Shown: positions 3,366 to 62,988 of the stretch, in pieces
Numbering within the stretch: position 1 is the stretch's first letter
How the letters are laid out: the number at the start of each line of letters is the position of its first letter
Assembly (NCBI GenBank): GCA_905221605.1
Contig: CAJNDS010002402.1
Span: 310,001-374,000, forward strand
From: Symbiodinium natans
Lineage: Eukaryota; Sar; Dinophyceae; Suessiales; Symbiodiniaceae
Direction: 5' to 3'
DNA length: 64,000 nt
Position numbers and translations under genes: made by a program
The notes under the pieces: model-generated
What the model saw: only the letters and a program-made list of their open reading frames with translations
Database searches by the model: none
Told to the model about the DNA's origin: nothing

Positions 3366-3890
3366 TTGCGATTGGAGAGAGACATGGAAAAGTTTATACA
3401 TGGTTTGCTCGTTGCAGGCATGGTCGCCCCTCGGAGGCTTTTAAGGCAGCGAAGGAAGAGTTGTGACTCTCCCCACCGAAAGTTGTGATGCCATGGCAGG
3501 AGAGTGGCATGGAAGATCCGTTCAAAGCTTTCGTGAGTTGAAAGTTGCTGTTGGCTAGTTGGCCAGGTTTGGACATCGTTTGCTAGTCCCCCTATCCGCT
3601 AGCAAGCTACGCAAACTATAGGAAATCCCACAGCATGCCATCGCAAGCCCTGCAAGCTCTTCAAGCCGAGCCGCTAAGCCCCTCTCGTTTCACCTTCAAG
3701 AACAAGAATAGGTTGGCGCGGGTCCTTCGGGCCGAGATTTCACCGCTTTTCCCACCGCATTGGACCGATGAAGGACCAAGAGAAGAGCTTCCATGCTTCC
3801 ACAGGTACTGTAGCGTGCAATGGCCCCTCCACGGGTGTACGAATTAGGGCATGCGAGGAACAAGTGGTTGAATCAACTTGAATCAGATCC

Positions 3891-3898
3891 GGCTCAAG
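3891..3898 (+). other. Possible spliced-leader remnant (GGCTCAAG)
   Basis: The eight bases equal the 3' end of the conserved 22-nt dinoflagellate spliced leader and sit 31 bases before the chosen start codon of an intronless gene. Known: mRNAs reinserted into dinoflagellate genomes can keep truncated leader copies. Only eight bases match, so chance is a serious alternative. Confidence 0.3.
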
Positions 3899-3929
3899 TC
3901 TTCGATTGGGGAGATGTGTGCTCCTTGAG

Positions 3930-5357
3930 ATGAGCTCCCTCAATGTCTCCGATTTTGCTGTAACCGCGGGGGCAGATGAATGGCAGCAGAAGGCGGCGGG
4001 GATCTTTCGGGATGCCGGTTTCTGCGTGATTCTCAACGCCCTCAGTGAATCAACAGCATCTGACGTGCTGGAGAGCTGCCTCGACGCGGAGCGAAAGATG
4101 TTGGAGCTGGATCCTGAGAGGATCGGGTGCCGCGACCCTGGTCGGTACAGCTTTGGGGCTGCCAGCCAGTCTGGCCACATGCTTCATTATGAAGCATGGT
4201 CACAGCTGCTGTCCTGTGAGGCTGTGCTGCATGCGCTGCACGCGATCTTTCCCGACGGATTCTGCTTTTGTGGCGGCGGTGGTGACTTCGTCCTGGGAGA
4301 GACCCTGAACTATCAAGCCCTGCACTCTGATTTAGGGCCTGGCCGAGTTCCTTCCGAGCATCGTTTGGAAAATGCACCCCCCAAGATCGCAGTGAACTTC
4401 ACTGTGCAAGAAATAGGCGCAGAGAATGGGCCCATGAGAGTCATACCAGGCAAGAAGGTCATCAGTGGGCAGCAAGACATTCCTCCCAAGTTCGCAGATG
4501 AACCTGAACGATACAAGCAGTCCAAGCTTTTTCCGCTGCCGGCTGGTGCCGCAATCATTCGAGACCTGAGGTTGTGGCATGGTGGTACTCCAAATCTAAG
4601 TGCAGAGACACGCTTCTTGCCAAGTGTGGAGGCGTTCTCTGCCAAGTACGCGTCTTTCATCTCCGGTCAGCATGCAAGTGAAGGCTGGTGCCGGGCATGC
4701 CAATGGCACCACTGCAGCATCCCTCTGAAAGATCGGCGATGCTGTTTACCCGAATACCTTTTTCTCAAACTGCCGCCTGCAGTTCAAGCAGTCTGTTCGG
4801 CCATACGCTCGCAGGACGCGGTTCCAACCGACTTTCGAGAGTTTGCCCACCTACGGCGCTCGTGGGAGGCAGGTGCCAGCTCAAGCCAGGTCTCGTCGAA
4901 GCCGATGTGGCAACCTTGGCGGCACGAGAAGAGTTTGCCAAGTTCGATGCCGAAGGCTCCAAAGCCTCTGATAGATGATTGGAGCGGTAGGAGGAAATGG
5001 CGTGGGAGAGTTGACTGGAACAGATCCTGGAGCGAGGCCAGAAACTCCAGGCAGGAGTTCAAGGGATATGCTGCGACGAACAAGTCCAGCAAGCTGGATC
5101 ATGATGAAGCTGGGAACAAAGACAACCAGGTCATTGCAAGTGTGCGGGGTGCAGCTGCAGCCATCGCCGCTGTCGTTGCAAAGAGTGCTCGAGTTACGCT
5201 AGGTCTTGTCGTGTTGTATCGAGCAACGAAAGTATGGGCAGCGTTCCTTACAATCTCTGAACGTTTTGTGACGGATGCGAGTCGTAGTGCACTACGAGTT
5301 CTGCCGACGATCGTGACTCGAATTCTGGGCCGGCTTGCCGTCCTGAGGCGCCTGTAA
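3930..5357 (+). CDS. Phytanoyl-CoA dioxygenase (PhyH)-like 2-oxoglutarate/Fe(II) oxygenase
   Basis: Intronless gene of 475 codons from the chosen ATG at 3930; an in-frame ATG at 3906 would add eight residues. Seen: an N-terminal helix pair, then the iron-binding HxD as His-Ser-Asp (codons at 4323-4331). The distal His lies in a Trp-His-Gly-Gly-Thr-Pro-Asn motif (4575-4595), followed six residues later by the Arg expected to bind 2-oxoglutarate. PhyH-family enzymes hydroxylate carbons in lipid acyl-CoAs or small metabolites using 2-oxoglutarate and O2; the substrate here cannot be read from sequence. The core ends near residue 250. A further ~220 residues are unusual for the family: a Cys-rich patch, a Trp/Arg/Ser-rich stretch and a C-terminal hydrophobic helix, ending in Arg-Arg-Leu, which is not a peroxisomal signal. 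GGCTCAAG lies at 3891-3898, just upstream. Family call firm, substrate unknown. Confidence 0.85.
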   Translation: MSSLNVSDFAVTAGADEWQQKAAGIFRDAGFCVILNALSESTASDVLESCLDAERKMLELDPERIGCRDPGRYSFGAASQSGHMLHYEAWSQLLSCEAVLHALHAIFPDGFCFCGGGGDFVLGETLNYQALHSDLGPGRVPSEHRLENAPPKIAVNFTVQEIGAENGPMRVIPGKKVISGQQDIPPKFADEPERYKQSKLFPLPAGAAIIRDLRLWHGGTPNLSAETRFLPSVEAFSAKYASFISGQHASEGWCRACQWHHCSIPLKDRRCCLPEYLFLKLPPAVQAVCSAIRSQDAVPTDFREFAHLRRSWEAGASSSQVSSKPMWQPWRHEKSLPSSMPKAPKPLIDDWSGRRKWRGRVDWNRSWSEARNSRQEFKGYAATNKSSKLDHDEAGNKDNQVIASVRGAAAAIAAVVAKSARVTLGLVVLYRATKVWAAFLTISERFVTDASRSALRVLPTIVTRILGRLAVLRRL

Positions 5358-14722: not shown

Positions 14723-17700
14723 GGTGGCTTGGTTGGCCTAGTCAACATGGGCAACACCTGCTTCATGAATGCTGGGCTTCAGTGCCTGAGGTGGAGACAA
14801 GAGCACATGTGCCTGCGGGTGTGGTGTGCGACATGCTTGCAGAGTGGCATAGTTGCTTGCGGCCGCGCCAGTCACATTGAACCCATCAGCGCGTACTTCC
14901 TGACGGGTAAGTATGCTGAGGACTGGGCTGAGAGATAAAGCTGCTTTGGGGTCTCTTCCCAGTCTTCCGGTGCAATGCTGATGTCGGCAGGAGCTTAATC
15001 CCAGCAATCCGTACGGGACTGGCGGGTGCGATCCCCGGAAATAGCTTGCCTAAGCTCAGGATAAGCTGTGTTTGATTGTGTTGAGTTTCTGGCTTCGCTT
15101 CAGAGCCCAGTCCACATGTTTGCGAGGCTCAAGCAGCAGTAGCATGTGATGCATGACACAGCATACCACCGCTAGACCCCGGTCATCTGGGAAGGTCGAC
15201 AGAATTCGTATACCAGAGTTGGTTCGAAGCTCTCCTTCTGCCAGGATGGCCGAAACACGTGCCTCATGCTTGCCCCCCGACATTGAGCTTGTGGTCTTTG
15301 ACATGGCAGGCACCACTGTGGATGACCTTGTCGATGGTGAGCCCTTGGTGATAGCAGCATTCCGAGCAACCTTGAAGGCTTATGATGGCACCGAGGTTGA
15401 TTTTGCCAAAGCTAACGAGGTTCGCGGCTATGAAAAGAAGGAAGCCCTGAAGCTTCTGATGAGCTCGACAAGAGGTGTGAAGGCTGAAGACATTGCGCAA
15501 AGCGAGGTCGACTTGGTATACAAGACCTTTGAATCCGAGCTCGAAAAGCTCAGTTGCAGCATCAACAGCGAGATCAAAGGAGCTTCTGCATGTTTCGAAG
15601 AACTGAAGCAGCGGGGCATCAAGGTTTGTGTCGGATCTGGCTTCCCGGCGCACGTCGTGGAAAGCATTGTGAAAAACCTTGGCTGGTCTGTGGATGGCTG
15701 TTTCTCCTCTGCTGCGCTGGGGGCCGGTCGCCCGGACCCTATAATGATCCACACGGCCATGAAGAGCTGCGGTGTGGAGAGCCCGAAAAGGGTAGTAAAG
15801 GTTGGCGATACGAAGGTGGACGTGGAGGAAGGCAAGAATGCCGGCAGCTGGACGGTGTCTGTGCTCAGCGGGACGCAGCCTCGAGAGAAGCTGGAGACAG
15901 CCCATCCCGACTTCATCATTCAGTCTGTAGCCGAGCTTAAGGGCTTATTCAGCCCTGCCAGTTAGATCCAAGGCTCCTTTAGCTGGGTGTGTGCTTGTGG
16001 TGACGTCGCCGATGCAAAGTCGTCGCCAGTCACCCTCCCATAGGTACCAGCGTGTATATAGATGTTAAGCAAAGGGCTGGGGCAAAAAGTGCCAACTGTG
16101 GATTGATGCGGCCAGGATGCGGCAGGGACATCTCGAGTGTTCATACTTTCTGACATGGATTGGTGTGCTGTTTTGAGAAGCGGACAGGCATTTGGCCAAA
16201 GGATTCGCCAAGTTGCAGGACAAAGTCGCCAGGGCTTCGAGGGCTCAGTCGGCTCAGTTTCCACCCCAACTTTGCACGAATTGGCTTTTCTGGATGGCGG
16301 TGTTCAAGGCAGGCGGGGAAGGGGAATTGAAAGAGCAGCGTACTGTACCTCCTGCGTGAAGTTCTCCAGCGCTACATAAATCGAAGTGAGTACCGAGTGG
16401 GGATGCGTTTTCAATCAGACTTTTCCTGGAAACTTCACAATGTGTGGAGTTGATCAGAAGGTCTTAGTGGATAGCAGAATTCAGAGTTTCTTTGCTGGAT
16501 GTTTGGATCGCAAAGTAGGGCCTGACAAAGCCTCTACACAAAAACAAAACTTCTCAAGTGCCTATGGGCACCGGCGAGGTGGCAGGCGCTGTGGCCAATC
16601 TGCCTGGGACGTTTGTTTTGAGGGAGTAGTCCTCCCCAACAGCAGAACGCCTGCATGTGACTCAAAGCATTCTTCAGGGTGTTCGGGCCCTTCTCCTTGC
16701 CATGAGGGAGCTTGGTCTCAATGTGGGCAAAATAGAGTAGACAGCCTAAAGGGGGTGCTTGAGAAGCCTCGAGAGTCGACTCTGTAGCTTTGTGGGATCC
16801 TGGGGGCTGGAAGCGGGTTCTCGGCACATCGATGACTTCCAGGAGATGCTGTGGCAGCGGCGCAGCCGAACTCACTCGCCCTCGCAACTGTATGGTACAC
16901 TATCGAAGTCGGCTGCTTGGAGGGTCCCCCCACATATTGCAAAAGACGGCGCGTGCCTTGCCCGACCCAGGTTTGCAAGACACCTTTTTCGAGATTCAGA
17001 CCAGCAAGATGCACAGGAGAGGTTTTACTGAAGTGCAGCTGCTGAGGGCTGCCACGATACAATGGCATCCTGGGGTCAGGGTTTGGCTCTCCTCCAGAGC
17101 GACACAGACGTTTGTTCGGCAAGGAATCTATGTGGCAGCTAGGGCCAGAGAGCTGTTGGTTTCGAGGAGCTTCTCGCGTACCTGCTGGACGGGTTGCATG
17201 AAGATCTCAACCTCGTCAAGGTAGAGCGCAAGGACCTAGTCATGCACTGTTGCAGTTCTTACAGCGTGCTGAATTCTCCTGACCATCCCTGGGTGTCCGT
17301 ACTCCCGTCTGATCCTGTTTTCACAAAGGACAATCGCAAGAAAGAGTCGGAACCCAAAGTGGATTCAGATGAAGAGGATGAGCGGATGGCTCAGGCTGGC
17401 AATCATCGGGATCAGTCATGTCCTGATCATGCTTGGACTAGCCTGAACCCGCATTCGGGTTGCCACCATACTGTACAGTTGCGAGTCATAAAGGCAACTC
17501 GTGATTTGAAACAGTATGATTCTGCAGATTTTTCGTGGTGGTTGGGGAGGCGACGGGGAGGGTGTGAAAGTGTCAGGCTCATGGATTCACAAAGCTCACA
17601 TGAAATCCCAGGCAACTGTGGTGACACTCAAAGTCTTCCTCAAAGTCTGCTCTGCACTCTCGGCCGTCGTCAGGATTGAGCCGCAAAGCGCGAACGTTCG

Positions 17701-21216: not shown

Positions 21217-23322
21217 AAGCGCAGCAACATTCCTGCCATGTAATTGGAGTCTGGCACATTCCTGCCCGTGTAGTTGAAAGCACATGTCCGCTTTCGGATA
21301 AGTTTCTTGTTTCTTTCTCGATTTTAATTTTGTCGCACAAGTTGCGCGTTCTGTATCCAGGGCATTCTTCGGTTCCAGCAGCCTTGGGGGGAGAGGAGCC
21401 TGGGAATTGTAGCTCTGGGGTATACTGGGTGGGTTCAGTCTTTGCTTGGAGTAGCTGACTTGCATGTCTTCTCCGTGGTTGTTTCCGCAGCCGTCACTGC
21501 GCATCCATGCCCGCACGATGATTATGTCATTCACCAGGCAACGTATCCATGCCATCACGATGATGACCACATCGCCAGCACGTTCACCACGACGATTACG
21601 TGCGTGTTACACACTCTAAACTACTTCAGAAGTCTCCGCCGCTTTTGAAAGCCGAACGATCGGGCCCTGCTCGGAAACATCGCGCCTGCCAGCGTTTTGC
21701 ACATGCTAACCGAAGCGCAATGCTGTTCCGTACCACGCGCGGATTCGACCCAGGAAGCTCAATCCATATCACGCCCAGAGGCAAGGCAGTGTGTCCCATT
21801 GCTACGTGGTGGTTCAGGGTGGTTCGGTACATCGCTCGAGTCTATGATCTGCTAAGTGTGCAGGCGTGGCCACACTACGTCTCCCGGCAGAACTCAGCGA
21901 TGCTGCCTGCAGTCCTGCACCTGGCAAGAGCTGACAAAACGCAGAGTGGCATGAATTAGTTGACCGCATTTGATGTGACCTTGGTGAGCCGCTCCAAGAT
22001 TTGGGAAGCCGTGGGCCGAAAGCCGCAGCCACCAGTTCCAAATGCTCAGGCGCCTTGGCGTCCGCTGTAAAATGCTTACGCTTAAACTTGGTTGCTGTGT
22101 TTTCTGGTTGAGCCGCAACAGCACTTTGTTCCAGCTTCGCGTGCGTGCTGAATTTGGGATGGCCATTGCGATACGTCCCGCCCCATCGCCAGGGACCGGG
22201 CGTGGTACTGCCAGAGCAGCCAAATGAGGCCTCTCAAACAGTCACTAATAGTCGAAGCTCAACATGCACCTGCCATTACCTGGGGGGGGGCCAACCAGGA
22301 CCCCGACTTGCCAGAGAGGTATGCTGGTGGTAGCCCCAGAATGTGGCAACTGGAGTTTTGCGCGTGCCCCAGCCACATGCACGAGATTGGCATGCCCAGG
22401 CTCTGTGGGTTCGGGGTGATCGGGCAGCTAATTTGCGTGTCACAGCTTAGCATGGCAAGACCATCTTCGAATCGTCGAAGTGCACTCAAGAGCTTGAGGT
22501 TAAAGAGAGAGTAGCTCAGCAACCGCTGGACTTGCCAGAAGTTATTTGTGTAATTTTAAGTAGCTCTCGTATCTAGACGATACAGGGAAGCTACTCAAAG
22601 CTTACCAGCTTTGGCGGCAGTCTTCCGTGCCCCAAGGGCACTAGATGCCAAAGCAATGCACAATGCCTGGTTCCGACCAGGCATTGCCTTCAGATTGAAG
22701 TCTGAAAGTGGTCAGATGCCCTGTGCCATCTCTGCCTAGATTCAGATTCACCTATGACCATCCTATGACCGATGGCCAAGAACCCATCATTGATGCACGA
22801 TATCAAGCACATGCAACACTTTAGATGCCCTAGATGCAAGCCTCGAACTTGCGAGCTAGCTGGTGCTTTTGGTCTGATTTTCCCCCTCAGAAGGAGAGGT
22901 GTCTGGCAGGTGCTCTTGCCAGACTGTTGTGACATGTACTCGTCTCAAGAAGCCACAGCTAGACCCAAGCAAACTTGCACTGGGAACAGTGACCGTGCAT
23001 CCAAAAGCCAGAGCCAGAGTAGAGACACGCCCATTATGCAAGGGAAGCGTCGCCACAGCTTTGCCATGGCAGTCAGTCGTAGTCTTGTGCATGCTTGTGC
23101 GCACAAGAGAGCCGCACGTCAAGCTGATCTTTGCAAGTATCCGTGAAGAATCTCAAAGAGCTGCAAACAAGACCAGGCAAGCTGTAGCGAACAAACACGG
23201 AATCGTGCGAAGATTGGACAGCCAGTACGCAAAAGGAAGGGTAGTCAAGAATAAAGTCAAGTTAAGAGACGTTAAAGCCAAAGCTGGCTCATTGAACTTG
23301 TTGGCCATGCTCCACAGCACCA
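21217..23322. other. No recognised gene
   Basis: Short frames only. A Lys/Arg-rich frame at about 23130-23320 could be an exon of the following EH-like gene but shows no motif. A run of eight or nine G lies at about 22281-22289. Confidence 0.4.
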
Positions 23323-23850
23323 ATGGGTCGCAGTGACAAAGTCAAGGGTCCACCAGAGATCTCACTGGAGCGGCTGCGCAGTCTGCCGGCCGAAGAACAG
23401 TCAGGCAGCTGGAAGCTTTACAAGAAGCTGGGAGGGCGGCGCCGATGCCTTCCGAAGTCTGTTGTGGAGGAATTCTTGCTAAGAAGCACGCTGGGTCCAG
23501 AAGTTGTCAAGAGCATTCTCGACACTGCTCTCACTGGTGACGCTGGAGACGATGTGGATTTCGAGTGCTTTTGCGTTGCCTGCCGCCTGGTAGCGCAGAT
23601 GCAAGAGCTCGGGCATTTTGCTTCCATCTCCGACGTCCCGGCCAACCCTCCTTACTTTGCAGAGGAGCATGAGGAGCAGGCCGCAGAGGACAAGGGGGAG
23701 GAGCAGAAATCTGAGTTCGACTTCGAAGGCGTTGCCTTCGGCGTGATCTCGCAAGGCCTGCGTTTTATTTGTGATTCTCTGCTAATCGTCTTCCTGCTAC
23801 TCCCCTTCCCACAATTCGAAACACGAATGCGTAAATACATGCATACGTAA
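23323..23850 (+). CDS. Exon with EH/EF-hand-like helical domain (partial gene)
   Basis: The frame begins with ATG at 23323 and is protein-like to about codon 140. Residues ~28-100 follow the pattern of an Eps15-homology domain: a helix with Leu-Tyr-Lys-Lys-Leu, the loop GGRRRCLPKSVVEEFLL (the EH position for an added helix before the second EF-hand), SxLGPEVVKSIL, then an acidic turn and DFECFCVACRLVAQM matching the C-terminal EH helix. EH domains bind NPF peptides in endocytosis. The canonical calcium-loop acidic residues are mostly missing, so calcium binding is doubtful. A Glu-rich linker follows, and the frame then probably runs into an intron near 23730-23760. The rest of the gene is not found; a large microsatellite starts 130 bp downstream. 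Confidence 0.45.
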   Translation: MGRSDKVKGPPEISLERLRSLPAEEQSGSWKLYKKLGGRRRCLPKSVVEEFLLRSTLGPEVVKSILDTALTGDAGDDVDFECFCVACRLVAQMQELGHFASISDVPANPPYFAEEHEEQAAEDKGEEQKSEFDFEGVAFGVISQGLRFICDSLLIVFLLLPFPQFETRMRKYMHT

Positions 23851-36640: not shown

Positions 36641-38158
36641 GACTGCGGCCGCGTGGACTTCTTTTGCAGGTGGAAGTTAAAAAGGTATCGCCTCCTCGGA
36701 CAGTCTGGAGATGGCAACAGTTTCGAGGCTTCATCGTGACCGAGCAGCGCTTGTCGCCTAAATCGGCATATGCTGACATGAGCTATCCATGTATGTGTGT
36801 GTGTGTGTGGAATCCGAGGCAATACATCTATGTACTGTCTATGCGCGTATGTACATGTATATACGCATACTATGTACAAACATACATGCGAACCACTCCC
36901 CCTCCAACGAACCCCACGTGTCGCATTTTTTGAAGTCCCAAACAGCGTCCGCCTGCTATTATTGTTGCTCTTGGTATTATTGTTTCTACTGTTAATTACT
37001 TCCAGTATTTCTGTTGTTATTGCCATGTGTAATTACTGCTTTTTGTATTACTGCCATATTTATGTGACTGCATTCCGTACTGTTATTACCATTCTTATTA
37101 CAATAAGTACTATTGTTACCATGACTTAGTTAGTATTGCTATACGCTTCTTTTAACATTCTTTTTTTACTTTTGCCATGTCTTGCCAGCAGTTGGGCCTA
37201 AGGATCGTGGCTGCTTGTTCGATCCCGTAGGGCTCGGGATTTCAAAGCCTAGCCTAGCACCCGGCAGTGAAGGATAGCGATTTCGGACATCCATTTCCCT
37301 GATAGGCCGGCCTTGTGGTAGGACTTGCGGAGCCCTGTCTCAGAAGAACCATGGCTGCCTGTCCCATCGGGTAAGGTTTGCTATCTCAGAGCTTAGGATC
37401 ATGAAGGCTTTCTATTGAGACATTCACTTTCCAGGCGGCGAAGCCATCATTGTGGTATGTGTCTCAGTGTGTATCTGGTGTGCTTTCAAGCGCCGAAACG
37501 AATTCAACAAATATGAGACAAGCTATCACAACTTCTTATTGTTAAGAAGAGTTTGTATAGAGTTGTTAAATGGTCAGCATGAAAAACGATGCAGAATAGA
37601 CTCTAAAGGTCCCAGCCACTTACAGTCATCTCTGAGTTTTTCTGTTATCTGTTATCATACGCAACTGTTGTTTCTAATTCACAGAGTTGTTATCATTCTT
37701 ATTCTTTTTGTTATTGCTATCAATGCTGTCACTGCTATGGATCCTATTGGTCACTAGTCTTCTTGTCAGTTGACAAATAGAGTTTGGACCGGCGACCTGG
37801 GCCACACTTTATAAAAAGGGTGTGGCCAGAAGGATGGGGAGCAGGGGGGATGGTTGTTTCCCTAGCAACAAGAAACGAGGACGAAGGGGTCTAAGCCGCA
37901 CCGTTTAAGACAGGAAAAGGACGAGCCACACCTTTTTCCAAACACGCATCCGCTGGTTTTTGGTGCACCTGCATGTGTGTCTATCACCCCATCTGTCTGT
38001 CTGTCTGTATACATGTACGTGTATATAAAGTATACAGGCATACATATGTAGTTATCACACTGGCATTCCTGGCACCCACGTCCGACCCTGCTGCTTCGGC
38101 CAGACTTGGCACAAGCTGCGGTACTGGTGTGTGTGCGCGCAGTGCCCTCTGATCAAAG
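36641..38158. other. Intergenic region, T-rich, upstream of the POT transporter gene
   Basis: Contains (GT)n and (TATG)n tracts at 36790-36885 and two low-complexity T-rich stretches (about 36950-37165 and 37620-37740) made of TATT/GTTATT words. A strong hairpin lies at 37800-37827. No protein-like frame is seen. The T-rich stretches could include the promoter, but I cannot point to one site. Confidence 0.5.
37800..37827. repeat. Hairpin GGCCACAC ... GTGTGGCC
   Basis: Eight-base perfect inverted repeat, extendable by G-T wobble pairs to eleven, around an AT-rich loop containing TTATAAAAAG. It lies about 330 bases before the transporter start. The loop resembles a TATA box, but dinoflagellates are not known to use one, so no promoter is called. 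Confidence 0.5.
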
Positions 38159-40118
38159 ATGGCGTATGACGATACTTTATCCGATGCGTCGACCGACTCA
38201 GACATTGCAGATGCCAAGATCAAGAAGCTCCCCATTGCGATGATTCTCCTGGTGGAGCTGTGTGAGAGGCTGACATACTACACCCTGGCGGGGACGCAGA
38301 AGACCTACATGCAGAATCAGCTAGACAAGCTGCCATCGACAGCAGCAGCACTGAACTCAGTGTTCAGCATGCTGTGCTATTTCTGGTGTATTCCAGGTGG
38401 CCTGGTCGCAGACTCAATAGGCCGCTACAAGACCATCATTGGTGCCGGTACGGTCTATGCCATTGGCACATGCTGCGTTGCTGTCGCGGTGATCCACGCC
38501 TTCCAGGAGAAACTGGGGTGGATGTTTACTGGTGGATGCCTCGTGCTGATCGCAGCTGGCACCGGTGGCATCAAGCCGAACATTGCAAACTTCGGTGCTG
38601 ATCAGATCGGAGATGACACTGAGGGCCAGCGGGAATGTCAGAAGACCTATTTTTCCTTGTTCTACCTGTCCATCAATGTCGGGGTTCTCTTCGCCTTCGG
38701 GTTCTTCACAAACATCACTACTGCAGGGCTTCCTGGAGTGGTGTCTGAGGCCGAGGGCTACTCTTTTTCCTATGGCGCCGGAGCCGTGTTCATGATAGCG
38801 GCGGTCCTGATTTTCATTTCCGGCTCTAGAGCCTACAAGAAGCTGCCTGGAAACGGGCTTGGGCCTGCGAAGCGCCTGGTCGCCTATCAGTGCCATTCCC
38901 TTCGAAAGGGAGGCTGGCGGGCTGTGATGTCTGCCATCGGCTGGCTGTGTTTGCCCTTCTTCTACCTCGTCACTCTGGCGGCCGTGCTGGTGCCCCCGCC
39001 GGCAGGTTCTCACGAGCAGGTCTTTGTGGATCCTTGCTCTGGCCAGCCGGGTGTGCCGGCTGCCCGCAGGCTCAATGGTGGGTCGGCCTCCAGCAACGAC
39101 GCTCTCAACAACACCGCGCTCGGGCTCGGCGCCATGGCCTGTGTCTGCCTTGTGGCCCGGTTCTCAGATCACCAGTGACGTCACTGGTCATTCCTCTGAC
39201 AGACTGATGTGCATGCATACACTGCTTTCACTTGAGGTCGCAAACCTGAACACCAAGTGGGTCCAGTCGCTGAGCGATGAGGCCAAGTCTACATTCAACG
39301 GCTTTGGCGTAGAAGAGGCGCGTGAGACATTTGCGGCAGTTCCAATGATCGTGATTGTGAACATTGCCTTCAACTTGTGCTACAACTCCATGAACAATGC
39401 ATTTCCTTCCCAAGCCTGCCAAATGGACCTCAGAGTCGGCAGCATACAGTTAAACGGGGCTTTCTTCAACATCGCGGATGCATTTGCAATCTTGGTCTTT
39501 ACCCCGCTTTTCGAGTCATGTCTGTACCCGATGCTGGGGCGAATGAAGGGATCTCCTGTGCGACTGGGCCAAAAGATCATTGCAGGCTTGCTTGTAGCAT
39601 GCGGATCCAACCTAGCCGCAGCTGCATTGGAGATCAAGCGGCGGGATGCGCCGTACCTTTGCTCCGCAGAATTCTCGCAGTGCGCCCCTGGGTACTCAGA
39701 AGACGGCTTACAAGGAACGCGCATGAAGGACATCAGCGCCTATTGGATCTTCGTGCCATTCACCTTAGTGGGAATTGCCGAGATTCTGGTGAACCCTTGC
39801 ATGTACTGCTACTCTTATGAGGCAGCGCCTGTACAAGTTCGTTCCCTGCTTCAGGCCATCAATCTTTTTTTCGCGGGGTCAGTTTCCAATGCTTTCACTT
39901 CGGTTGTCACAAAGCTTACGTACCCGAACGACTTGGACACTGGCCACCTCGAAAACTACTACTATGTCAACGCTTTCCTGGCCGTGATCGGCATCTTCTT
40001 GTACTTCGCAGTCACACGCCTCGGCTCCAAGAAGGGGATACGAAAGGAGATTAAGAAAGAAGAGAGGGTGGTGGACTGCGGTGGAGGAGAATCGAGCGAT
40101 GAGGATAGCACCATCTGA
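38159..40118 (+). CDS. POT/PTR2-family proton-coupled oligopeptide (or nitrate) transporter
   Basis: Two exons, 38159-39154 and 39237-40118, separated by an 82-bp GC-AG intron. The join falls on a codon boundary and gives 625 residues, close to the family's usual size. Seen: a short acidic N-terminus, the ExxER proton-coupling motif in TM1 (Glu33, Glu36, Arg37), the PTR2 signature GGLVADSIGRYKTI (80-93), the GGIKPNIANFGADQ block, FYLSINVG (second PTR2 signature), about 12 hydrophobic segments in all, and a Lys-rich then acidic cytoplasmic C-terminus. Family members import di- and tripeptides with protons, and some plant relatives carry nitrate or hormones; which applies here cannot be told. 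Without removing the intron the first exon would stop at TGA 39176, in the middle of the fold, so the intron is required. Confidence 0.93.
39155..39236 (+). other. GC-AG intron of the POT transporter gene
   Basis: Begins GCCCGG after a Val codon and ends CTTGAG before GTC. Removal joins two halves of one transporter in the same frame. The intron itself contains in-frame stops. Confidence 0.9.
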
Positions 40119-58413: not shown

Positions 58414-59577
58414 ATGTCGGCTCTGTCCGAGACAGCCTCCGGGTCGCAGTCGGCAACGCCGGCGACTTCTGCAACTTCCGGACCCTCCAGACCCAAGAAG
58501 AGCATGTCTGAGCTACTGGCAAAAGTCACGTCGGATGTCCCCAGACAAAAGCTTTCAGAGAAAGATGTTGATGACTTCTTTCGTGCTGAGCTGTGGCGGC
58601 CAGAACAGAAGTCCTTTCGTGAACAGGTGCTTGACCGGGCAGCTGATCTTGCACCCTCAAGCAGTGCTGCACCACCGTCACCAGTGAGAACTCCACCAAG
58701 ACGCGGTCGGCCACCGGCAGCAGAGACCCCTCCCCCTTTGCCCCGGCCAGGGCGACCCAACCAAGGGAAAGAGGGCAAACTGAGTGCCGCCCCTCCCGTG
58801 GATCGCAAGCGTAAGAGCGAGGCGCAGCCGCCGACGAAGGCAAAGGTGGCGAAGGCTGGCTCTGCCAGCTCAGAGACCTCTCCAGTTGCCTCGCGGAGGC
58901 ACACAGTGAAGTCACCAGAGATGCCAAAGTCCATCCTCAAAAAGCCCTCCCCGAAGAATCAGAAACCCAAGAAGGCTATTGAAAAGCCAAACACATTGCA
59001 GAAGTCAACCCAGCGTCAAATCACCAAGCTGCAAGCCACGGGGGCTTTGACGCGTGTTCCGGTTGATGTCTTTGCCGAAGTGCACGTGAAGCCAGAGCCG
59101 CAGGAGAACGGAAAGCACGGACGTCCACAGAGGCGCAGGATGCCTCCACTACAAAGTTGGCGGAACGAGCGGGTGATTTACAAACGGACGGCCCGCTCTG
59201 CCGGGCCCTCCGTTGTCGCAGTCGAGCTCGACATGGCCCGGGCTCCCGATGTCCAGCTACCTGCCTTGCAACTCCCGCTGCCGGACATCGAGGCCTCGGA
59301 GTTTGCTGGCATATCCACACAAAGAATGGGCAGCAAGATCTACGCATTGCCTTGCACGGCCAGGGCAGGGCCCTGCACGATTGAGCTTTGTGGCCCAGGG
59401 CTGATTCACGTCTTGGACGGATCACTGCGGTTTGCGAAAGAGACAGACAAGCGGGAGAAGCTGGCGGATGTTGGCACCAGTATCTGTCTTAAGGATTCTG
59501 AAAGTCATTTGCTGGCTCCGGCCGATAAAGATGGCGAGGACTCAGGAGTTCGCTTCTTGTGGGTCGAGATCAGGTAA
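58414..59577 (+). CDS. CENP-C/Mif2-like kinetochore protein
   Basis: Intronless gene of 387 codons from ATG 58414; the in-frame ATG 58306 is less likely because its extension is not protein-like. Seen in order: a Ser/Thr-rich N-terminus; an AT-hook-like RRGRP (96-100); a long basic Pro/Lys/Ser-rich linker; the CENP-C signature (240-256, RRRMPPLQSWRNERVIY), matching the family pattern R-x-R-x-x-P-L-x-x-W-R-x-E-R-x-x-Y; then a cupin-like beta domain (about 315-387) ending RFLWVEIR like the Mif2/CENP-C dimerisation cupin. CENP-C links centromeric nucleosomes to the outer kinetochore; the signature motif normally binds the CENP-A tail and the H2A/H2B acidic patch. In a group with few histones and an extranuclear spindle this is of special interest. 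The protein is shorter than vertebrate CENP-C (about 940 residues) and nearer to fungal Mif2. Confidence 0.82.
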   Translation: MSALSETASGSQSATPATSATSGPSRPKKSMSELLAKVTSDVPRQKLSEKDVDDFFRAELWRPEQKSFREQVLDRAADLAPSSSAAPPSPVRTPPRRGRPPAAETPPPLPRPGRPNQGKEGKLSAAPPVDRKRKSEAQPPTKAKVAKAGSASSETSPVASRRHTVKSPEMPKSILKKPSPKNQKPKKAIEKPNTLQKSTQRQITKLQATGALTRVPVDVFAEVHVKPEPQENGKHGRPQRRRMPPLQSWRNERVIYKRTARSAGPSVVAVELDMARAPDVQLPALQLPLPDIEASEFAGISTQRMGSKIYALPCTARAGPCTIELCGPGLIHVLDGSLRFAKETDKREKLADVGTSICLKDSESHLLAPADKDGEDSGVRFLWVEIR

Positions 59578-60715: not shown

Positions 60716-61647
60716 GGAGTCTTTGGATTGCATATGTTTGCATGTTTTGCAGGCTGCGATAGAAGCAGCCCGTGCGAGTGTGGGACTCAGCTCACATGAG
60801 CTTACGAACTCAGGAGGGGCTGATCCATGCTATCTCGCAAGCCCATTTTTTGTGTTGCATCCCATTGCCGAGGCCAAGACGTGCACACAGAAGGCCAACT
60901 GCAGAACCTTCTTGCACGGGGCCACCTCATAAAAGGGAACACTGCCGCGGCCCCATTCCCAAGCAGCTCGTGCAGTGCGTGATGGCTCCTGTTCGTCACG
61001 AGCTGGAAAACAAATCTTCAACCGAAGTATGCGCAAGTTTTTGCTGGCTTTCGCAAGCAATTAACAAGGAAATGCATAAGCAAATGGCTTTGAGGGCAGA
61101 CGCGTGTCCCCGTCATACTATCGCACACCACCCGCACACACAGACTTTAGCCGTCCAGGGGCACCTTGGCATACTTCCATCGATCTATCTATCTGCGCGT
61201 TGTGCCAAGGGTCCTTGTGTTCGAGCTTCTTTGGAATGAAGCGGCAAGTCATAGCAAGTTTAGTGGTCGCGAGAGATTGGCGAAAGATCCGCCAAGGACG
61301 TTCGCAAGCGAAAGTTATGAGGATGGACATAGGCCTCGCGGAGGTTCGCGAAAGTATCTGCGAAAGACTTTACACTTTCGACGAAGAACGTCGATTTCCT
61401 CGTGCAGGAATTTGATTGGACGGTCGTCATCTAACATGCATATTGCCTAGTGCACATGACTACTGGTGGATAGCTGCCTGGCACATAAGCTGGTTCATTA
61501 GCTCGCTCATAGTGGAAGATGTGCGCACGCGTGGGGAAGGGTTTCCGTTCACAAGGAGTCAAGGAGTGCAAGATTGTTGTTTTCTCAGCTTCGGCTGTAC
61601 TGCAGCTCAAGGCCTCGGTTGAGTGTCAAGCTATAGCATCCTTTCTC

Positions 61648-62988
61648 ATGGTGGAAGAGAAGTCGCCATCACCAACGCTGCCAACGCCGTTTAAGATTCA
61701 TGTTCCTGACGACGATCTGGCAGATCTGAAAGCTCGGCTTGCGAGAACCAGGATTGTGCCAGATGAGATTCTAGATCGAGATGCTGACGCATCTGGTGCC
61801 TGGGCATATGGCACGGACAGGACGGTGCTGCAAGAGTATGTGTCACATTGGCTCCACAAGTATGACTGGCGAAAGAAGGAGGCAGAGCTGAACTCGCTGC
61901 CACATTTCCGAATGGAAGTGCAGGGCCTGCAGACTCATTTTATCCATCAGCGGTCTGAAAACCGTGACGCCATTCCGCTGCTTCTCGTGCACGGTTGGCC
62001 TGGTTCCATCGTGGAGTTCCTGAAGCTCTTACCCTTGCTTGCCGAGAAGTTCCATGTGGTCGCCCCAAGCATCCCTGGCTACGGTTGGAGCGAGGCCCCC
62101 AAGCGCAGAGGTGCGGGTGCACAGTTCATGGCAGACCACATGGCCGAGCTGATGCGAAAGCTAGGCTACGACACTTATGTTGCGCAAGGCGGCGACTGGG
62201 GTGCCATCATCACCTCGCTCGTTGCGCAGCGCTTCCCGCAGAACTGTGTGGCACTTCACATAAATATGTGCGTTGCGATTCCCAGTGATTGGTACGACGT
62301 CGTCAAGGCGTTGCTTGGATTGCCGTTCTGGACTCGAGAGGAGTGGGCAGGGCTCAAAACCACAATGTATTTCCAGAAGTATGAGACAGCCTATCAGAAG
62401 CTCCATGGCACAAAGCCACAAAGCCTCGGATACGGGCTCAACGACAGTCCAGTTGGGCTTTTGGCCTGGATCCTGGAAAAGTTCCAGAGCTGGAGTGACA
62501 GTCGTGGAGGTCGCCCGGAGGCGAGTGGCCTGACCATGGACGAGATTTTAACAAATGTTATGGTATATTGGACAACCCAAAGCATCACCTCCAGCCTGAG
62601 GCTCTACTATGAGACCTTGTCTATCCACCCGCCCCCCCAAAGCGATGCAAGCGATAAGGGGCGGAGCCGCTTCAAAGGTGTCAATGTGGCTGTGCCCACC
62701 GGAGTCTTGTGGGCCCACACCGATCTGTATAAACTGCCTCGCAACATCGTAGCGCTTTGCTATAACATCCGTCAGTGGAGCACGCCTTCCAAGGGAGGAC
62801 ACTTCTTTGCTTTTGAGCAGCCGCAGATCATGGCAGCTGACATCGAACGCTTTTTCTGCAAAACGCTGGACTTTCATCATTGCAAGAAGAACGCGCCATC
62901 CCCTGGCCGGCCGGTCCGCCCTGGAAAGTACATTCTCTTGGCCGTAATGGCTGCGGGGATTATTCGAGCATTGCGCTCTCGGCTGTAG
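61648..62988 (+). CDS. Microsomal-type epoxide hydrolase (EPHX1/EHN family)
   Basis: Intronless gene of 446 codons. ATG 61648 is chosen because the EHN domain begins about 12 residues later; the in-frame ATG 61519 only adds non-conserved sequence. Seen: an N-terminal EHN domain (about 13-105) that wraps the alpha/beta-hydrolase core; oxyanion motif HGWPGS (115-120); nucleophile Asp183 in GGDWG; lid with the Tyr-rich YQKLHGTKPQ segment; probable acid Asp359; catalytic His385 in GGHFFAFEQP. The enzyme hydrates epoxides to diols in detoxification or lipid metabolism. Unlike animal EPHX1 it lacks an N-terminal membrane anchor. It has instead a hydrophobic segment near 425-440 and ends Ser-Arg-Leu, a peroxisomal PTS1 signal. 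Peroxisomal or membrane-linked location is inferred. Confidence 0.93.
   Translation: MVEEKSPSPTLPTPFKIHVPDDDLADLKARLARTRIVPDEILDRDADASGAWAYGTDRTVLQEYVSHWLHKYDWRKKEAELNSLPHFRMEVQGLQTHFIHQRSENRDAIPLLLVHGWPGSIVEFLKLLPLLAEKFHVVAPSIPGYGWSEAPKRRGAGAQFMADHMAELMRKLGYDTYVAQGGDWGAIITSLVAQRFPQNCVALHINMCVAIPSDWYDVVKALLGLPFWTREEWAGLKTTMYFQKYETAYQKLHGTKPQSLGYGLNDSPVGLLAWILEKFQSWSDSRGGRPEASGLTMDEILTNVMVYWTTQSITSSLRLYYETLSIHPPPQSDASDKGRSRFKGVNVAVPTGVLWAHTDLYKLPRNIVALCYNIRQWSTPSKGGHFFAFEQPQIMAADIERFFCKTLDFHHCKKNAPSPGRPVRPGKYILLAVMAAGIIRALRSRL

Follow-up and report, generated by a model that had tools for sequence, protein, structure and literature searches.

A divergent CENP-C-like gene of the dinoflagellate Symbiodinium natans, with a CENP-C motif that has lost its tyrosine

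CENP-C (Mif2, Cnp3) is an inner kinetochore protein that links chromosomes to the apparatus of cell division in most complex cells. It is widely present in eukaryotes (PMC5579357). Its signature motif has the core RxxxxPxxYW, and mutants in the R, Y or W bind nucleosomes less (PMC4830207). The motif arginine anchors in the acidic patch of H2A-H2B, and the human central domain, whose W530 is proposed to contact the hydrophobic tail of CENP-A, no longer bound CENP-A nucleosomes when that residue was mutated (PMC5472775). We describe a CENP-C-like gene of the dinoflagellate Symbiodinium natans, located at positions 58414..59577 (+ strand) of a 64,000-nucleotide stretch of contig CAJNDS010002402.1 (assembly GCA_905221605.1, positions 310,001 to 374,000 of the forward strand), hereafter the window. 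We consider it likely that the gene encodes a divergent relative of CENP-C (Mif2) that reads nucleosomes with an altered contact to the histone tail.

It has long been asked how dinoflagellate chromosomes, which lack conventional nucleosome packing, are connected to the microtubules of the spindle when the nuclear envelope between them stays intact. Two reviews disagree on the machinery in their available text: according to one, some dinoflagellates apparently possess canonical kinetochore proteins (PMC9089191), whereas the other lists dinoflagellates with a completely distinct kinetochore blueprint (PMC7614391). Because CENP-C is widespread in eukaryotes, its presence in a dinoflagellate is no surprise in itself; what does surprise are the three copies and the lost tyrosine. 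None of the literature searched, in the portions available, describes a dinoflagellate CENP-C sequence, and the supplements of two surveys (PMC5579357, PMC10952624) may list such sequences. The available main text of the first mentions neither dinoflagellates nor Symbiodinium, and the second places its kinetochore table in the supplement.

The coding frame runs without intron from an ATG at 58414, the first in frame, to a stop at 59577, giving 387 codons plus the stop. From stop to stop it spans 424 codons and ranks fourth in length among the 3,746 segments of the window (mean 33). In a search of 5.8 billion proteins, relative P0002 aligns colinearly with the window protein (P0001) at 62% identity and 100% query coverage, which supports the start and length of the gene. 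An earlier sequence-only reading, which had proposed an intronless 387-codon gene in a genome of dinoflagellate type, is supported on both points: another relative is labelled Polarella glacialis (Dinophyceae, Suessiales), and deviant H3-like frames occur in the 759-Mb assembly of the organism. With its open frame and full-length relatives, the gene is also the only one in the window recognised by its own family. A motif and cupin profile made from the 17 other aligned members and searched against all six-frame segments of at least 30 residues matches this frame alone at E ≤ 10, with 223 bits.

Three alignments were used: A1 holds the window protein and 10 relatives; A2 adds to the window protein 11 of the 16 relatives, leaving out the near-duplicates P0003, P0005, P0008 and P0009, and also P0017; and A4, with 18 rows, comprises the window protein, all 16 relatives and P0019, the product of a second gene in the same genome. 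The 18 rows are interdependent, several pairs being 86-97% identical across the C-terminal part, whose tree resolves about five well-separated groups.

The CENP-C motif, GRPQRRRMPPLQSWRNERVIYKR, occupies residues 236-258 (59119..59187, +) and is assigned from PDB searches, residue counts and the roles described in the literature. R240 takes the place of the acidic-patch anchor, W249 that of the core tryptophan, and S248 stands where tyrosine is expected. A search of 177,635 distinct PDB sequences with the window protein alone returns three matches at E ≤ 10, all of them CENP-C or Mif2. Family profiles reach at best E values of 0.0013 with 11 sequences, 2.9e-05 with 12 and 6.3e-05 with 18; each profile has five PDB matches at E ≤ 10, and all five carry the CENP-C motif. 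Read in six frames, the window contains the bare core R....P...W 14 times, of which 13 fall outside the gene, and this core is no evidence when taken alone. The extended motif R....P...WR.E[RK] occurs once, at the gene, which together with the PDB matches bears out the CENP-C signature noticed in the earlier reading. In all 18 aligned proteins R240, P245, W249 and the RNER that follows W249 are invariant; the constancy of the putative acidic-patch arginine and of the tryptophan points to the nucleosome as the binding target.

The residue preceding the tryptophan behaves otherwise. At the tyrosine position of RxxxxPxxYW the aligned proteins have threonine (8/18), serine (7/18) or alanine (3/18). 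By our own positional alignment, based on the spacing RxxxxPxxWW, this lost residue falls on human W530, which makes the change interesting. Putative fish CENP-C also has replaced aromatic residues in its motif (PMC4830207); the loss thus has a precedent, and with this position variable we do not treat the tyrosine as defining CENP-C. The dinoflagellate family appears to have retained the arginine anchor and altered the contact with the histone tail.

After the motif, at about residues 294-387 (59293..59574, +), AlphaFold2 models, Foldseek and VIA-align 2 support a predicted cupin barrel, expected to be a dimerisation domain. This agrees with the cupin-like C-terminus that had been proposed, and structure prediction gave no non-cupin fold in its place. 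In the best model of the C-terminal part the barrel blocks reach pLDDT (predicted local distance difference test) values of 63-86. The long stretch before the motif is predicted to be disordered.

On the histone side, we searched the genome with a general core-histone family. It gave 43 matches at E ≤ 0.01, and for every one of them the best-scoring human histone is H3 or CENP-A, the weakest reaching 9.3 bits. The genome has a single canonical-looking H3, whose sequence is split over exons and ends in RRLRGERT, alongside many deviant H3-fold frames; the first 30 loci fall by eye into about 13 types, one of which has at least nine near-identical copies. These nine frames (L021-L029), of 197 residues each and on different contigs, show a copy number unusual for an intronless deviant histone. 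Other frames, of 355-444 residues (L012 from position 457 onwards, L017 and L018), have the H3 fold at the C-terminus only and are candidates for specialised H3 variants. The core-histone search returned H3-like frames only, either because the search is limited or because the bias is real. In the available text of a review, CenH3 names given in Symbiodinium and Breviolum are called premature (PMC6723414); a histone phylogeny could not robustly pick out a centromeric histone (PMC4751559), and casein amino acids are reported to raise a "CENP-A-like" transcript of Breviolum minutum more than threefold (PMC7710908). Candidate H3 partners thus exist, none of which can be named from sequence.

Several observations weigh against a nucleosome-reading CENP-C relative. 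The single-sequence PDB search is weak, its best E being only 0.026. Confidence in the whole-protein AlphaFold2 model is moderate, with a mean pLDDT of 42.8, barrel blocks at 55-77 from residue 301 on and a first strand below 50; of the five models of the C-terminal part (means of 60.3, 41.3, 36.0, 34.0 and 32.5) only the best folds well, and in fold comparison other cupins score equal to or above those of CENP-C. The Pfam model of the CENP-C cupin, PF11699, matches none of the 18 members at E ≤ 10 and nothing in the genome assembly at E ≤ 0.001. The 43 histone matches include no clear CENP-A and no H2A, H2B or H4, a result of this search that does not imply their absence. Finally, with the apparent equivalent of W530 lost, classical binding to CENP-A nucleosomes cannot be assumed.

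PF11699 is a database model, and a match to it is not a defining trait of CENP-C; the window protein in fact has no Pfam family match of any kind at E ≤ 10. Profile searches, which the earlier reading had named as a check, are divided: family profiles find only CENP-C or Mif2 in the PDB, but the ready-made cupin profile is blank. Altogether, the motif, the predicted cupin and their order give good support to a kinship with CENP-C/Mif2. The family shares with CENP-C/Mif2/Cnp3 the arginine anchor, the core proline, the tryptophan and the WRxER tail, a predicted cupin after the motif and a long, predicted-disordered part before it. It differs in having S, T or A for the core tyrosine in every aligned member and no PF11699 match, in the shortness of the window protein (387 residues) and in the presence of at least three divergent copies in one genome.

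These copies emerged when the window protein was searched against its own 759-Mb assembly at E ≤ 10, with five matches: the gene itself, a second gene, a third gene and two matches at E 1.8-2.0, which contain internal stops and were taken as noise. The second gene (copy B, P0019) lies on contig C1902 and encodes 427 residues (E 1.3e-39). In the tree of the C-terminal part the window gene (copy A) groups with P0002 and P0003 (support 100/99), and P0019 with P0007 and P0008 (99/98). The two groups are sisters (94/87), each with relatives of its own, so the duplication predates the splits inside each group.

The third gene, P0018, is matched by the window protein on contig C2338 over the motif only (E 0.0129). 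It is an intronless frame of 1059 codons (C2338:147279-150455; L006:3780-6956), the sole copy found in the genome. In its motif, GRPRRHQIRVLEHWRNERVLYER, the core proline is replaced by V and the tyrosine before W by H. Aligned to P0018, the family profile covers the motif and its flank (probability 96.4, E 1e-09); hmmsearch gives 39.4 bits over residues 815-854 only, in a two-sequence file where the E-value means little. The window gene is not among the matches at E ≤ 1 of the reverse genome search with P0018. A Cupin_2 match at residues 982-1044 (E 0.0081) is weak and below the curated cut-off, and kinship between this putative cupin and that of the window gene is not shown. Judged by these sequences, the genome carries at least three CENP-C-like genes.

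Such a family raises the question of which copy does what. The window protein could be a paralogue of CENP-C that has left the general mitotic kinetochore for a special role, for instance in meiosis or in another chromatin task, while another copy, such as P0018, serves as the general linker. The three genes in a single genome, the separate and supported clades of copies A and B, each with its relatives, and the N-terminal block missing from copy B (see below) all speak for it, as does the coincident duplication of Cid and Cenp-C in Drosophila, likely with specialisation (PMC12724597). The likeness to Drosophila lies in the duplication of the CENP-C gene; here, by contrast, the A/B pair with relatives on each side is joined by a far more divergent third copy, nearly three times as long. 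Against specialisation of the window protein, its motif and that of copy B are fuller than that of P0018, which lacks the proline and has H before W. We regard this alternative as rather unlikely, but as the likeliest of those considered here.

KNL2 is defined by its SANTA domain. A reading of the window protein as a KNL2/M18BP1-like loading factor for CENP-A can draw on the CENP-C motif reported in vertebrate M18BP1 (PMC4830207), so the motif is a trait that both may carry. What surrounds it speaks for CENP-C: neither SANTA nor Myb is among the Pfam matches at E ≤ 10 of the window protein or among the 7 families matched by the 18 members, though divergence could hide a SANTA domain, and a predicted C-terminal cupin following the motif is the order of CENP-C. 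This makes a loading factor improbable.

Upstream of the motif, an N-terminal block recognised in the alignments, DDFFRAELW...SF..QVLDRAADLAPSSSAA (residues 47-86; 58552..58671, +), is a candidate docking site for an outer-kinetochore partner; in CENP-C the Mis12 complex is bound by an N-terminal region. FFR..LW is found in 14 of the 18 aligned proteins; copy B (P0007, P0008 and P0019) lacks it, and P0010 starts past the block. Its match to the DDFF stretch of yeast Mif2 (residues 17-38) is very weak, 2.9 bits, and of no use. Next come a TPx[RK] site and, directly after it, basic residues (residues 93-99; 58690..58710, +), with TPx[RK] kept at this place in all 18 proteins. The site at residue 93 fits the consensus of cyclin-dependent kinases (CDKs), and it is plausibly a CDK site.

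DNA-binding proteins of the AT-hook type have a conserved RGRP core in a basic context. An AT-hook-like RGRP core does occur in the window protein (residues 97-100; 58702..58713, +), as the earlier reading had noticed, but it is absent from the 17 other aligned proteins. The idea that this hook contacts DNA directly is unsupported because the hook is unconserved; of the CENP-C/Mif2 reading offered earlier, the kinship is well supported and the DNA-contact role of the hook is not. It is very improbable, then, that the window protein binds DNA through the hook in place of recognising nucleosomes: the RGRP core and a basic composition (66 K+R vs 43 D+E) are what can be said for this, against an anchor arginine and a tryptophan that never vary. 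Least credible is an unrelated nuclear cupin protein with a motif by chance, for although the bare core abounds in the window and other cupins equal those of CENP-C in fold comparison, the extended motif is unique there, its key residues are invariant and all five PDB profile matches are CENP-C.

With the nucleosome-reading CENP-C relative as the preferred reading, the following mechanism, and with it a probable function at the kinetochore, can be proposed. The cupin would dimerise the protein, and the motif would lie across the histone octamer: R240 would sit in the acidic patch of H2A-H2B, and W249 would touch an H3 variant at its C-terminal tail. As the residue beside W249 is no longer aromatic, the tail contact may be weaker or differently specific, matched to the deviant H3 histones of the lineage. 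A CDK may tune octamer docking through the conserved TPx[RK] site, and the FFR..LW block would dock a spindle-side partner. DNA would be held via nucleosomes and not via the AT-hook.

In a review of electron microscopy (PMC3603444), the attachments of dinoflagellate chromosomes lie within the nuclear envelope, whose membrane is reached by decondensed loops of the chromosomes; the review considers a classical DNA-binding interface of the kinetochore likelier than one based on histone-like proteins. Such envelope attachments with decondensed loops would be a plausible place for locally nucleosomal chromatin. More tentatively, we suggest that the CENP-C family has split in dinoflagellates: the histone-tail clamp would have lost its aromatic half (Y to S, T or A, or to H) and the acidic-patch anchor would be kept, in step with the deviant H3s. 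Each copy would then recognise nucleosomes with its own H3 variants, or the copies would occupy separate faces of the kinetochore embedded in the envelope. If this were true, centromeres would be identified by a code of nucleosome surfaces that no studied lineage shares. Candidate CENP-C genes with identified nucleosome-contact residues offer a way to tag the attachment site, map centromeres and find the centromeric histone.

The window holds other coding frames on the same strand. An epoxide hydrolase gene lies downstream as a single open frame (61519-62988, +), with an EHN domain (E 4.4e-39) and an alpha/beta hydrolase domain. Further frames encode a PhyH dioxygenase, a HAD hydrolase and an EH-domain stretch (3882-5354, 15150-15962 and 23296-23847, all +). 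A POT/PTR2 peptide transporter at 38153-40115 (+) has its two halves in separate frames that overlap (E 1.4e-28 and 6.3e-24); the gene may contain an intron, carry a frameshift or be a decayed copy.
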